From Gammaproteobacteria bacterium (lineage in GTDB: Bacteria > Pseudomonadota > Gammaproteobacteria > SZUA-229), in contig JADGFA010000011.1 in the NCBI GenBank assembly GCA_016744065.1, positions 1 to 64,000 on the forward strand: a DNA stretch of 64,000 bases, written 5' to 3'. Of this stretch, positions 3,805 through 9,417 are shown one piece after another. The number at the start of each line of letters is the position of its first letter. The first letter of the stretch is position 1. A program made the position numbers and the translations under genes. The notes below the pieces were generated by a model. The model was not told the origin of the DNA, made no database searches, and saw only the letters and a program-made list of their open reading frames with translations.

Positions 3805-4701
3805 ATGGATAAAACACAGCAAAATTTCGCTGTTATGTTTGCAGATATTGCAGGCAGTACACGTTTGTACGAGCGCCTGGGCGATCAGGTTGCAAACCAG
3901 ATGATTGGAGATGCTATAAACCTCGCAGCGGGTCTAATTAAGAATAATAAAGGGGTTATAGTAAAGCATATTGGTGATGAGGTTATGTGCCGTTTTTCAA
4001 GTGCCGATAATGCGGTGCTTTGTGCCTGTGAAATCCATGAAATGATGGCGGTACAGCCTGTGCAAAACGGTGTTGGTCTGGTGTTTCGAATCGGCATTAA
4101 CTGGGGGCCCGCTATTTTACGTGATGATGGCGATATTTTTGGTGATGCGGTTAATCTGGCGGCAAGAATGGCGGGGGTTGCAAAAGCCAGGCAGATAATT
4201 ACAACAGAATTTGTTAAGCAGAAGCTTTCTGATAGTCGGTTGTTATCCAAGTGTCGTGAAATAGACTGTACCTATGTTAAAGGTAAGCTGGAAGCCGTAT
4301 CCATTATAGAAGTTATGTGGGAACCTAATGATGTTACCCGCATGTCGACAATTATCAGTAATAATGTGATGCATATTAGTGATCGGCCATTATGCCTCTA
4401 TTTTCAACATAAAAAACATGAGTTAAGTCCTACGGCAGGTGCTTATACGTTTGGGCGAGATATTCAGTGTAGCCAGATGGTCGCATCTACACTGGTTTCC
4501 AGAGTACATGCAAAAATTGAATGTCGGCGGGGTAAGTTTATATTGATAGATGAAAGTACTAATGGTACTTATTTGCAGGTGCAGGATAACAGCCCCATAT
4601 TTTTAAAAAGGGAAGAAGTTGTGTTGCAGGGTAAGGGTGTTATTAGTTTTGGTGAAGAGCTTAATATAAGCAGTGATTTTTTATTGCGTTTTCATTTTTA
4701 G
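3805..4701 (+). CDS. Class III adenylate cyclase with C-terminal FHA domain
   Basis: A 298-aa soluble two-domain protein. Residues about 5-175 form a class III cyclase homology domain. Metal-binding Asp14 lies in FADIAGSTR and Asp58 in HIGDEVM. Lys54 and the Asp of DIFGDAVNLAARM occupy positions that select ATP, and the Asn and Arg of VNLAAR are the transition-state residues, so it looks catalytically intact and likely makes cAMP. Residues about 195-298 form an FHA phosphothreonine-binding domain (FGRD, SRVHAKIE, DESTNGTYL). There is no signal peptide or membrane segment. The FHA suggests recruitment to, or control by, a Ser/Thr-phosphorylated partner. FHA proteins also occur in T6SS control (compare tagH at 58057), but a functional link here is only inference. 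No strong ribosome site precedes the ATG. Confidence 0.88.
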   Translation: MDKTQQNFAVMFADIAGSTRLYERLGDQVANQMIGDAINLAAGLIKNNKGVIVKHIGDEVMCRFSSADNAVLCACEIHEMMAVQPVQNGVGLVFRIGINWGPAILRDDGDIFGDAVNLAARMAGVAKARQIITTEFVKQKLSDSRLLSKCREIDCTYVKGKLEAVSIIEVMWEPNDVTRMSTIISNNVMHISDRPLCLYFQHKKHELSPTAGAYTFGRDIQCSQMVASTLVSRVHAKIECRRGKFILIDESTNGTYLQVQDNSPIFLKREEVVLQGKGVISFGEELNISSDFLLRFHF

Positions 4702-4850: not shown

Positions 4851-4971
4851 TTGATATAAAGCTCAATAAATATAAAAGAGGCTGTAATTATTGATGTAAA
4901 TATCAATTCATAAAATTGACATATATGTCAACATGATCTAATATTTAATTATCTATTGATATAAAGGTCAA
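4851..4971 (+). promoter_or_regulatory. Four 16-bp operator-like dyads upstream of hipB
   Basis: Four related palindromes lie between the cyclase gene and hipB: TTGATATAAAGCTCAA (4851-4866), TTGATGTAAATATCAA (4891-4906), TTGACATATATGTCAA (4916-4931, perfect) and TTGATATAAAGGTCAA (4956-4971). Their starts are 40, 25 and 40 bp apart. The third covers the -35 box and the fourth ends 4 bp before the hipB ATG and includes its AAGG ribosome site. HipB-type antitoxins repress their own operons by binding several such sites, so these are the probable HipB operators. Confidence 0.8.
4916..4944 (+). promoter_or_regulatory. hipBA sigma-70 promoter
   Basis: A perfect -35 TTGACA (4916-4921), a 17-bp spacer and -10 TAATAT (4939-4944) predict a start near 4951 and a leader of about 25 nt. 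The -35 is embedded in the perfect dyad 4916-4931, so repressor binding there would block RNA polymerase. Confidence 0.75.
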
Positions 4972-4975
4972 GATA

Positions 4976-5218
4976 ATGAGCATGACTACTCAGTTGCTTA
5001 CACAGATACTGGAATTGGCCAAACGTAAAGGGCTTAAACAAAAAGAGCTGGCAGAGCGTGCAGGGCTTTCAGCGGAGTCTATTTCAAGAGCAAAGAAAGC
5101 GGGTGATATGCACCTGTCCAGTTTGCAAAATCTGGCTGGTATAGTTGGTTTAAAGCTGTTTCTAGGGCCTGATGAGCCTGTAATGCAAAAAATTAACAGT
5201 GGTTCACTGTTTAAATAA
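4976..5218 (+). CDS. hipB: HipB-like antitoxin, XRE-family helix-turn-helix
   Basis: An 80-aa DNA-binding protein. Residues about 18-50 form an XRE helix-turn-helix (KQKELAERAGLSAESISRAK), and the tail runs into LKLFLGPDE. Size, domain and position 9 bp upstream of a HipA-type kinase identify it as the antitoxin half of a HipBA pair, which neutralises HipA and represses the operon. The array of four dyads over its promoter and ribosome site fits autoregulation. Which HipBA subfamily it belongs to is not clear from sequence alone. Confidence 0.85.
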   Translation: MSMTTQLLTQILELAKRKGLKQKELAERAGLSAESISRAKKAGDMHLSSLQNLAGIVGLKLFLGPDEPVMQKINSGSLFK

Positions 5219-5227
5219 GTAATTTAG

Positions 5228-6601
5228 ATGCAGCGTGATAGACAGGCAGTAGTGTGGACGCGTCAATCGGGTAAACCTGTAAAAATGGGGCGTTTATATC
5301 TGACTGAGTCGGATTGTCGCTTTACTTATGAGCTGGATTATCTGTCATTACAGCACCCTGGCCTGGGTTTGTTGTATGCGCCTGAGATCGTTCAGGAAAG
5401 TACAATTGTTCGGCCCCGAACTGCTTTTTTTGATTTTCTTCCTCCCATACAGTCTTTATTGCCCCCTAAAGGTGAACATAATTTTCAGCGTAAGCTGGTA
5501 TTAACCTATCTGGCTAAAAAAGGTATACAGCCTTCAACTGGCCTGGATGCAGACTGGGAAATACTAAAAATGAGCGGGCATGGGGCTATTGGTCATTTAG
5601 ATGTCTTTGAGAATGATGATAAAGCACTTAAATGGTATTCGACACCGCCAGCAGCAGAATTATTTCAGGTGTCTGAAGACCTGGGTTTCTCATTAAAAGA
5701 GATGCTTAGCTGGCTGGATCAGGATGCCAGTGAGTTAATTAATATAATTGGTCCAACTCCCAGTGTAGGGGGGGCGATTCCTAAAATCCTGCTTAGTATT
5801 CCAGAAACCGGCTGGGATAATAGAATCGGTTTGCCCAGCCGTGGCTTAGCTCCAAAAATGACCGATGTGGTTGTAAAGTTTGAGCAAAGTACAGCATATC
5901 CTGGTATAAGTGAGTTAGAGGCCTTAGCGCTGGATGTGCATCAAAAAGCCGGTTTTAAAATACCAAGGTACTGGTTATCAGATATGCGCGGCATTCCCAT
6001 GCTTGCAGTCGAGCGCTTTGATCGGGATGCTGCAAACACACCGGTGTTTATGGAAACACTGTATTCAATTTTAGCTACGGGTGATACGGATGTTACACAT
6101 CATTACAGTTACAGCTATGATGCTATTGGTACCGCCATAGATAAAAGCCCAATGGATATTGTTAGCCAGCGTAAAGAAGGAAAGCACCATTTAATGAAGC
6201 GCCTGATATTGTCTTTGTTAACAGGCAATGGTGATTTGCATATGGAAAACCTTTCCGTATTACTTGCTAATAATGAAGCTGAATTTACGCCTGTTTATGA
6301 TCCAACGCCTATGCGGGCTTATGCCATACATAATATGATATCGGTAATGCCATTTGGCGATTATGGGCAATTACTTAATGAAAGTGATGACCCTGTTAAC
6401 CTGCAACAGGCTATTCGACGCCTGGCAAAAAATTTAGGCCTGACGCCAACTCAAACAGAGGAAATTATTTACACCAGTTTACAGGCAACAGAAGACTTTA
6501 CCGATAAAGTATCGGCGTTAAATACGCTACCTGAATTAAATAAAAATAACCTGATAAAAATCGTTAATAAGGTAAGGAAGAAAATAGAGTTTATGCTATA
6601 G
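5228..6601 (+). CDS. hipA: HipA-like serine/threonine kinase toxin
   Basis: A 457-aa HipA-family kinase. Known members phosphorylate aminoacyl-tRNA synthetases and cause growth arrest; the target here is unknown. An ATP loop-like segment is seen at GGAIPKILLS, a candidate lysine in VVVKF (about residue 217), the catalytic loop NGDLHMENL with Asp336 and Asn341, and the metal-binding Asp358 in YDPTP. The LAVERFDRD segment is typical of the family. The N-terminal subdomain is present in the same chain, so this is not a split HipS/HipT type. Its length is close to the 440 aa of E. coli HipA, and all key residues look intact. It follows hipB by 9 bp in one operon and ends just before the first copy of an 88-bp direct repeat. 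Confidence 0.9.
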   Translation: MQRDRQAVVWTRQSGKPVKMGRLYLTESDCRFTYELDYLSLQHPGLGLLYAPEIVQESTIVRPRTAFFDFLPPIQSLLPPKGEHNFQRKLVLTYLAKKGIQPSTGLDADWEILKMSGHGAIGHLDVFENDDKALKWYSTPPAAELFQVSEDLGFSLKEMLSWLDQDASELINIIGPTPSVGGAIPKILLSIPETGWDNRIGLPSRGLAPKMTDVVVKFEQSTAYPGISELEALALDVHQKAGFKIPRYWLSDMRGIPMLAVERFDRDAANTPVFMETLYSILATGDTDVTHHYSYSYDAIGTAIDKSPMDIVSQRKEGKHHLMKRLILSLLTGNGDLHMENLSVLLANNEAEFTPVYDPTPMRAYAIHNMISVMPFGDYGQLLNESDDPVNLQQAIRRLAKNLGLTPTQTEEIIYTSLQATEDFTDKVSALNTLPELNKNNLIKIVNKVRKKIEFML

Positions 6602-6627
6602 GCAGGTGGTGTCACAGGCCTGCTTTT
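6602..6627 (+). terminator. Possible weak terminator after hipA
   Basis: Immediately after the hipA stop, GCAGG (6602-6606) can pair with CCTGC (6619-6623), followed by TTTT. The stem is only 5 bp with a 12-nt loop, so it is weak. The right arm overlaps the start of the 88-bp direct repeat. Confidence 0.35.
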
Positions 6628-6705
6628 AATTAATCCTGTCGTTTTGTATTTCGCTCGGTTTTATTGTTCTAATTACATTAATTTATTTGCATATTATTTG
6701 TCCTG
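6618..6705. repeat. 88-bp direct repeat, left copy
   Basis: This segment begins GCCTGCTTTTAATTAA and ends GCATATTATTTGTC. It recurs in the same orientation at 9332-9417 with only about seven mismatches. The two copies bracket the 401-aa, 286-aa and receiver-domain genes. The sequence has no terminal inverted repeats or integrase signature. Confidence 0.9.
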
Positions 6706-6840: not shown

Positions 6841-8046
6841 ATGTCAGCGAATAACTCGCCCGTAATCGCGGGAAAAACATCTGGTATTCCCATAGAAGCA
6901 ACACCTCAGGCTCAACTGGTTTTCAAAAACCTTGAAAGACAGGCCCCTAAGAACTATTGGGCGCATATGATCGTCAACGGTATAAATGCCCTTTGTTCTG
7001 GCCAGATGAGCGTGAATAATGTCTTTATTAAAGAACAGGCATACTCCAAAGGCGCAAAAGGCAGTGAATTTTACGTTGTTTTACCCGGCTGCACAGCTTC
7101 GATGAAGAAATTGTCAACAGGTCGATATAAGCTTTTGCATATGACGGCTGATATGAATTATTTTGATGGACAGAAAAAGGCATTAAAACCTGGAACCTAT
7201 ACAGCTATAAAAGACGATCAAGATTGGAGTACAAAATTTATACCTACTGGCAATATCTCACAAAAAGAAGATAGAGTTGTTGCTATAACTGACGGTATTT
7301 ATAACGAACCAGATGATGCGGCATCTCAATGTGAAGGCTTTATTGTAAATTCACCAGTTTCAGGAGGTGAGTACACTATTTATAAAAATGGCTTTGATAT
7401 GCATTTCACGCCAGGGACTGGTAGGATTGGTGGTCTAAGCAATCTTAAACAGGCTTTTAACTCTGAAAATAGCCCAGGCCTACATGAATCGGCTTATCTT
7501 TTGGCTAAAACTATGCAAGATGCAAAAGATATTGATGGGGTAAGATGGATAGCAGAACGGGGTGGTTCTGGCGTTTTAACTCAGGCAATGCGAATACTTG
7601 CGGACAAAGGTGTAACGCTTGAAAAGCATACGGTTTTTCTTAGCAATCCACACACTCAACAACATAAGATCATTGAGCTTGGTAGTAAATTGAATTTAAG
7701 AACAGCTAGAAACATCAGCATAAACAACACTATACACCCAAGTGAGTTAGTCGGGGGGGTATTTTTTGGTGTAGGTGGTTATTACACTGCAACGAAAAGA
7801 CTCCAATTTGAAAATAACTATACGAAATTAAATTTTGTTGGTGATATAGCAAAAGAAACGGTTAACCTGAAGGGCGCAGGCGGTACCGGTATTGCCATTG
7901 GTGCAGCCATGGGTATTTCATTAGGCGTTACTTTACCTGCTGTTTTTGCATTTGTCGGCGCAGTAGGTGCTTCCATGGGTGTTAGTTCAAAATTAGCCGA
8001 AACGTTTATACCCCGTTTATTTAATAAAATGAAAGGGAAATTCTGA
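6841..8046 (+). CDS. Unknown 401-aa protein with glycine-rich hydrophobic C-terminus
   Basis: I do not recognise this family. Residues about 1-330 look soluble, without a signal peptide. Residues about 343-385 form a long glycine- and alanine-rich hydrophobic stretch (such as GTGIAIGAAMGISLGV and FVGAVGASMGV) that could form one or two glycine-zipper membrane helices. A basic tail (FNKMKGKF) follows. A leaderless protein with a buried hydrophobic hairpin near its end is a shape shared by some membrane-disrupting toxins and T6SS cargo, but this is inference only. A good AAGGA ribosome site precedes the ATG. The next gene starts 2 bp after the stop, so the two are very probably co-translated. 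Both lie inside the 88-bp direct-repeat bracket. Confidence 0.75.
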   Translation: MSANNSPVIAGKTSGIPIEATPQAQLVFKNLERQAPKNYWAHMIVNGINALCSGQMSVNNVFIKEQAYSKGAKGSEFYVVLPGCTASMKKLSTGRYKLLHMTADMNYFDGQKKALKPGTYTAIKDDQDWSTKFIPTGNISQKEDRVVAITDGIYNEPDDAASQCEGFIVNSPVSGGEYTIYKNGFDMHFTPGTGRIGGLSNLKQAFNSENSPGLHESAYLLAKTMQDAKDIDGVRWIAERGGSGVLTQAMRILADKGVTLEKHTVFLSNPHTQQHKIIELGSKLNLRTARNISINNTIHPSELVGGVFFGVGGYYTATKRLQFENNYTKLNFVGDIAKETVNLKGAGGTGIAIGAAMGISLGVTLPAVFAFVGAVGASMGVSSKLAETFIPRLFNKMKGKF

Positions 8047-8048
8047 TT

Positions 8049-8909
8049 ATGATGAATACACCTTTCAGATTAAGAAGACTAAAAGAATATTGCACACCCA
8101 AAGGCCCTGCGTTTAAACAGTCTCAGGCTATTGTTTTTTCTATTGATGGCACAATGATAGGTCTTAAAGCACCTAAACATAAAACGGTATACTCATCCAA
8201 CGAACAAATAAAACCTAAACGACGTTATCAATTATCTGAGTTTATATTTAGAGATTACCCGAGGGACTTCGTCAAAGATCAAAGCTGGAAAAAAGCAATC
8301 ATATTTTCTCGCTCATGGAGTTTTTATGGCCCGTGGTTTACAGGGCCTGTAGCCGAGCTACCATTTAGTACAACACTCATTAAAGCAACCAATAAAAAAT
8401 CAGAATCTTATTTCCATCCCCGCGCATTTGAAACCGCAGTAAGCGACTTTATAAGCCAACAGTACTCACATGATTTTGATCAGAATAATGTTCAGGAATG
8501 GTTAGCCCCAATCGACTGGCAACCTTACAGTAACGGTGTGCGATTTAAAGTTACTCCAAATCCGAATGTCATTAACGCCAGCTTCATAAGAGAGTATGCC
8601 ATGGTAGCTTTAACCGATGATATAATACTGGTGTTTACATTCTGGCTGCGCCAAAGAGTTTCTGGTGTTATCAAAGACAAGGATAAAATGGTTAACCGTC
8701 AACCACTTGAGGATCTGGTCGGTGACATTATTGACCATATCAAAATAGATTTTTCACCTGAAGCACAGGCACAAAAAGACAAAGCATTAGAGGGGCTGGA
8801 AGACGCTTCACTCTCGCCTGCATTCGCACCATTAAAATGGAGTAATGCTGAACAGCCTATAAATACAAATAAAGAGCCAGACGCCCTGAGCTTTAACACA
8901 GATAATTAA
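8049..8909 (+). CDS. Unknown 286-aa protein paired with the 401-aa protein
   Basis: No family is recognised. It has no signal peptide. Aromatic-rich motifs (FSRSWSFYGPWFTG, FHPRAFETAVSDF, WLAPIDW) and a short hydrophobic strand (VALTDDIILVFTFWL) suggest a compact alpha/beta domain, with an acidic, low-complexity tail after about residue 240. It starts 2 bp after the 401-aa gene and must be its functional partner: an immunity protein, chaperone or second subunit would all fit. A tandem ATG-ATG marks the start. Confidence 0.75.
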   Translation: MMNTPFRLRRLKEYCTPKGPAFKQSQAIVFSIDGTMIGLKAPKHKTVYSSNEQIKPKRRYQLSEFIFRDYPRDFVKDQSWKKAIIFSRSWSFYGPWFTGPVAELPFSTTLIKATNKKSESYFHPRAFETAVSDFISQQYSHDFDQNNVQEWLAPIDWQPYSNGVRFKVTPNPNVINASFIREYAMVALTDDIILVFTFWLRQRVSGVIKDKDKMVNRQPLEDLVGDIIDHIKIDFSPEAQAQKDKALEGLEDASLSPAFAPLKWSNAEQPINTNKEPDALSFNTDN

Positions 8910-9331: not shown

Positions 9332-9417
9332 GCCTGCTTTTAATTAACCCTGTTGCTTTGTATTTCGCTCGGTTTAGTTGTTCTAATTACATTAATTTAA
9401 TTGCATATTATTTGTCT
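9332..9417. repeat. 88-bp direct repeat, right copy
   Basis: Right-hand partner of 6618-6705, in the same orientation and about 92% identical. It lies in the noncoding gap before the Calx-beta lipoprotein gene. The spacing between copies is about 2.7 kb. Confidence 0.9.

Follow-up and report, generated by a model that had tools for sequence, protein, structure and literature searches.

Four operator-like dyads over a hipBA promoter keep their spacing across relatives with different operator sequences

A hipBA operon with an XRE-type HipB and a HipA-fold kinase

The window, by which we mean the whole 64,000-nucleotide stretch of DNA analysed here, carries two adjacent genes on its forward strand: hipB (4976..5218), encoding an 80-residue XRE/Cro-type HTH protein that would act as antitoxin and repressor, and hipA (5228..6601), encoding a 457-residue Ser/Thr kinase of the HipA fold (PF07804), the putative toxin. 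The arrangement has what defines a hipBA type II toxin-antitoxin system, with an antitoxin gene directly 5' of a kinase gene, a HipA domain in the one product and an XRE/Cro HTH in the other, and the pair is a hipBA operon in which the toxin and antitoxin roles are putative, assigned from sequence. On plasmids, the only relatives among the matches listed fall below 25% identity, and the subfamily is therefore not evidently plasmid-borne.

HipA matches PF07804 (HipA_C) with 96.5 bits (cut-off 30.5), and the GNGDLHxEN and YDP residues are invariant or nearly so across 26 HipA homologues. Its structural model matches E. coli HipA over the full length, with a TM-score of 0.62-0.68 and about 17% identity in the structural alignment. 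HipB scores 23.1 bits against PF01381 (cut-off 23) and 22.7 bits against PF13443 (cut-off 22); helices are predicted at residues 22-28 and 33-42, the second of which is the predicted recognition helix and contains Glu34. In Foldseek comparisons the HipB model falls closest to XRE proteins, among which are the HipB proteins of S. oneidensis, Legionella and E. coli; the E-values are weak (5e-3 and above), as is usual for a small HTH protein. HipB lies below the cut-off of NCBIfam TIGR03070 couple_hipB (Y4mF), at 18.4 versus 71.65 bits, and the locus falls outside the single-gene HipH/YjjJ kinase class, since hipB is a separate gene and PRK09775 scores 27.9 bits against a cut-off of 401. For the HipBA system of Shewanella oneidensis a ternary complex of HipA, HipB and operator is reportedly known (PDB 4pu3/4pu4); the folds of its proteins match those of both window proteins.

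Four dyads cover the hipBA promoter

Upstream of hipB, four 16-bp dyads start at window positions 4851, 4891, 4916 and 4956 of the forward strand, exactly 40, 25 and 40 bp apart from start to start. They are O1 (4851..4866; TTGATATAAAGCTCAA), which has an equivalent site in relatives, O2 (4891..4906; TTGATGTAAATATCAA), O3 (4916..4931; TTGACATATATGTCAA, a perfect dyad) and O4 (4956..4971; TTGATATAAAGGTCAA). Of the eight halves, five match TTGAYAT exactly; the other three read TTGAGCT (O1, right), TTGATGT (O2, left) and TTGACCT (O4, right). O3 begins with TTGACA, a perfect -35 hexamer (4916..4921, forward strand), which is followed after a 17-bp spacer by the probable -10 hexamer TAATAT (4939..4944, forward strand). 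O4 comes immediately after the inferred transcription start and includes the Shine-Dalgarno-like AAGG of hipB (4964..4967, forward strand), 8 nt before the ATG at 4976.

The preliminary description of this DNA had noted four 16-bp TTGAYAT dyads with 40-25-40 spacing over the hipBA promoter, one of them over a perfect -35 box and another over the hipB ribosome site, and all of this is borne out in the window. We take the array to be genuine and, in all likelihood, functional.

The spacing is kept in homologous promoters

Of 96 related genomes, 41 gave a match to HipA, although some of these matches are weak and concern other HipA families. From an alignment of 26 HipA sequences we obtained 80 named loci, which come from Gammaproteobacteria, Nitrospirota and other MAGs. 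A hipB-like ORF lies directly upstream of hipA in nearly all of the homologous loci examined. We searched 74 homologous hipB promoters, mostly from uncultured Gammaproteobacteria and Nitrospirota, for arrays of any motif, leaving each of the three spacings free between 18 and 48 bp. The arrangement 39-41/24-26/39-41 was the best in 40 of these promoters and in none of 666 dinucleotide shuffles. With the spacing held to these ranges, an array score of at least 43 was reached by 51 of the 74 promoters, and by no control segment either further upstream (0 of 72) or inside hipA (0 of 76).

The array DNA is otherwise diverged, with a median nearest-neighbour identity of 0.61, and because these regions share so little sequence, the conserved spacing is not simply inherited DNA. 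At the level of sequence comparison, these data show the array geometry to be under selection, as would be expected for a multi-site complex. That the spacing is kept across relatives whose operator sequence has changed is the strongest point of the analysis, and one that the preliminary description had missed.

Departures from this geometry were also seen, and a clear four-site array with 40/25/40-type spacing is missing in about a quarter of the homologous loci (for example, L053, L062, L092, L125 and L126). Three loci with TTGCG sites have a spacing of 40/34/40, and five loci of a sister clade whose HipB helix reads DSSISR (L111, L113, L116, L117 and L124) have three sites at 39-40/35; the last operator of these five loci overlaps the hipB start or lies close to it. 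At L085 the spacing is 40/77/40, with a middle step that exceeds 24 bp by about five helical turns. As the variants keep the 40-bp pairs and alter only the middle gap (34, 35 or 77 bp), the 40-bp pair is the constant unit. At 10.5 bp per turn, middle steps of 24, 25, 34, 35 and 77 bp correspond to helical phases of 86-137 degrees, and a step of 26 bp to about 171 degrees. The middle step may thus vary by approximately whole helical turns (24-26, 34-35 and 77 bp), a pattern that is suggestive only, because the independent variants are few.

The conservation of distance also bears on whether neighbouring HipB dimers need to touch at all. They could repress from the four dyads independently, with the additional sites doing no more than raise local occupancy, and it is consistent with this that the match to the consensus varies between sites and that Legionella HipBST has three operators, for which intermediate occupancy has been raised as against the cooperativity of E. 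coli (PMC10653801). However, independent sites need no fixed distances, whereas the spacing is held to about 1 bp in dozens of sequence-diverged loci, and we consider repression without mutual contact to be unlikely.

A fixed register between array and promoter

In 38 of 55 loci, the start of the best TATAAT-like hexamer lies 22-23 bases beyond that of O3, and this fixed distance indicates that the array keeps register with the promoter. Over all loci the match to the clade consensus is best at O1 and least at O3 and O4 (although O3 is perfect in the window), which is what would be expected if promoter elements constrain the latter two sites.

The overlap of O4 with the ribosome site had led to the suggestion of a further layer of control, at the start of translation; O4 in the mRNA, or HipB at O4, would then also govern translation of hipB. 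AAGG does lie inside O4 in the window, a weak hairpin can form in the leader, and O4 contains a Shine-Dalgarno-like tetramer at other loci as well, although in only 23 of 55. Against this, the start of O4 ranges from -16 to -48 relative to the hipB ATG across the 55 loci while the distance from O3 to the -10 hexamer is fixed; the fold of the window leader RNA has a z-score of -0.61, with 51 of 200 shuffles folding as well; and HipB is a DNA-binding protein of the XRE type. To our knowledge, no RNA-binding role has been described for HipB-type XRE proteins. The variable distance from O4 to the ATG, the limited overlap and the shuffle-like fold leave translational control unsupported, and we think it very unlikely to operate here; the overlap between O4 and the ribosome site follows from the shortness of the leader.

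A position in the predicted HipB recognition helix tracks the operator core

While the geometry holds, the half-site differs by clade (TTGAY, TTATC, TTACC, TTTCC and TTGCG), and on the HipA tree the core dinucleotide of the operator has undergone eight changes or more. Where the half-sites are TTGAY, the HipB helix reads, for example, SAESISR or RQETLSR; EVGLSR or EITLSR go with TTATC, STLSK with TTACC and SPTRISK with TTTCC. Among the HipB columns compared across 55 loci, that of residue 34, which falls in the predicted recognition helix, tracks the operator core best (normalised mutual information 0.74), with all others at or below 0.35. The operator core is thus followed most closely by a single position of HipB, which makes HipB the most likely binder of the dyads in this family and the likely binder of those in the window.

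Glu34 coincides with a TTGA core in 55 of 55 loci. The HipA tree has a single Glu34 switch, and the independent-pairs test of Glu34 against TTGA is left with one informative pair; the relation between Glu34 and TTGA is therefore a strong association, and not independent evidence of co-evolution.

The array is nearly unique in its genome

The preliminary description had proposed looking for the same 16-mer elsewhere, and we counted dyads throughout the 3.88-Mb genome from which the window comes. The exact consensus 16-mer occurs in two places, O3 and a site in a coding gene on another contig (L001 1501-1516, within an ORF at 1101-1571). With zero or one mismatch there are about 20 places; allowing up to two mismatches gives 197, compared with 114 for the reversed control. 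At the resulting density of about one per 20 kb, four sites in 121 bp greatly exceed what chance would give. Pairs of TTGA-N8-TCAA dyads lying within 56 bp were found at four places in 3.88 Mb, three of which are in the window array, while the reversed control pattern gave none. The array is thus nearly unique.

The roughly 20 near-exact places could mean that the dyads belong to a different, global regulator with hipBA among its targets. We rejected a global regulon of the dyad, as no comparable array exists elsewhere in the genome, the sole other exact match is intragenic, and from locus to locus the operator core tracks the recognition helix of HipB; such a regulator is highly improbable. 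No TTGAYAT array at 40/25/40 was seen upstream of the HipA-family genes L127, L128, L129 and L131 of the same genome. One of these, L129, belongs to another hipBA pair, and dyads of other sequence (TGTTGACTGTTTGTCAACA and TTGACACTAATAGATGTCAA) lie some 80-200 bases ahead of the hipB in that pair.

An origin of the array by chance in AT-rich DNA or by recent tandem duplication, which the AT-rich promoter and a 28-bp unit present three times at 68% identity or more might suggest, is refuted by the 0 of 666 shuffles and 0 of 148 control segments that reach the observed arrangement or score and by the identical geometry of loci with different half-sites, and has practically no chance of being correct.

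Relation to known HipBA systems

In E. coli, HipB binds four operators cooperatively and bends the DNA by 70 degrees, with HipA as co-repressor (PMC3920265, PMC3376134), and HipA-HipA contacts at the promoter matter for the high-persistence allele hipA7 (PMC7029023). In the literature that we searched, cooperative binding and bending are described for E. coli HipB alone. The hipBA locus of E. coli K-12 shares with the window a hipB-hipA operon, an XRE antitoxin, four symmetric dyads over the promoter and the HipA fold, and both arrays contain a 39-40 bp step. The E. coli sites, however, are TATCC-N8-GGATA at 28/39/28, whereas the window has TTGAYAT at 40/25/40 and lacks an array of the E. coli type. 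The placement also differs: in the window O3 covers the -35 box and O4 falls downstream of the start, while in E. coli one of the sites seems to be located between -35 and -10. Given that the order is short-long-short in E. coli and long-short-long in the window, the HipB-HipA assembly must be arranged differently in the two.

The HipBST system of Legionella pneumophila resembles the window in its XRE-type HipB and in having several operators with a regular spacing conserved across species; it differs in the number of sites, three, which are separated by 53-bp gaps, and in its toxin, which is split into HipS and HipT (PMC10653801). Moreover, the Legionella O1 sequence is almost perfectly conserved (PMC10653801), whereas in the window subfamily the sequence drifts and the distance holds. 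For hipBA1 and hipBA2 of Caulobacter crescentus, series of inverted repeats have been described at intervals that the authors consider compatible with the E. coli complex (PMC7029023). A system of this kind is therefore already known; as far as the literature that we searched shows, a 40/25/40 geometry that is kept through a change of motif has not been described.

A model for autoregulation through fixed distances

The array very probably represents the autoregulatory operators of the hipBA operon, with HipB and HipA repressing their own promoter much as in E. coli hipBA. Repression by HipB through a four-operator array, as put forward in the preliminary description, is most likely given the conserved geometry and the position of O3 over the -35 box. 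We infer HipB binding, cooperativity, bending, HipA bridging and release at the window array, bending and cooperativity by homology with E. coli HipB only.

In such a model, one HipB dimer would occupy each 16-bp dyad, O1-O2 and O3-O4 forming two 40-bp pairs separated by a middle step of 24-25 bp. HipB, together with HipA as co-repressor, would fill all four sites to give a defined higher-order complex that covers the -35 box (at O3) and the start region (at O4) and thereby blocks RNA polymerase. The operon would be repressed while HipB is plentiful and re-expressed once HipB falls. The distances would be locked because neighbouring HipB-HipA units touch, and the sequence of the sites would be free to drift provided that the recognition helix of HipB drifts along. 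Extended to a HipBA subfamily found so far mostly in uncultured bacteria, the model becomes a distance code of two 40-bp pairs and a middle step, with the distances set by a HipB-HipA assembly unlike that of E. coli, operator and recognition helix drifting together and the middle step changing mainly by whole turns; our confidence in this wider proposal is evenly divided.

Since operator sequence and geometry evolve separately in these loci, the geometry can serve as a fingerprint for the complex of repressor and toxin, and it allows operators to be predicted at hipBA loci whose motif is not known. The loci also provide a natural series in which equal distances are combined with five or more half-sites, suited to working out the specificity of HipB, in which position 34 tracks the core. 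The same series serves to test the bridging of neighbouring operators by HipA, a contact thought to be weakened in E. coli hipA7 (PMC7029023).

Genes adjoining the operon

The two copies of an 85-bp direct repeat (window positions 6618-6702 and 9332-9416; 93% identical), which has no further copy in the genome, enclose a 2.7-kb stretch that holds two unclassified genes, their products being 401 and 286 residues long. These adjacent genes (6841-8909) gave no match in Pfam, PADLOC or NCBIfam and none in the examined flanks of related hipBA loci; on the latter ground the repeat-flanked stretch may be an insertion. At 3805-4701, adjoining hipBA, lies a gene in which an adenylate/guanylate cyclase domain is fused to an FHA domain, and it also neighbours hipBA in two close relatives.
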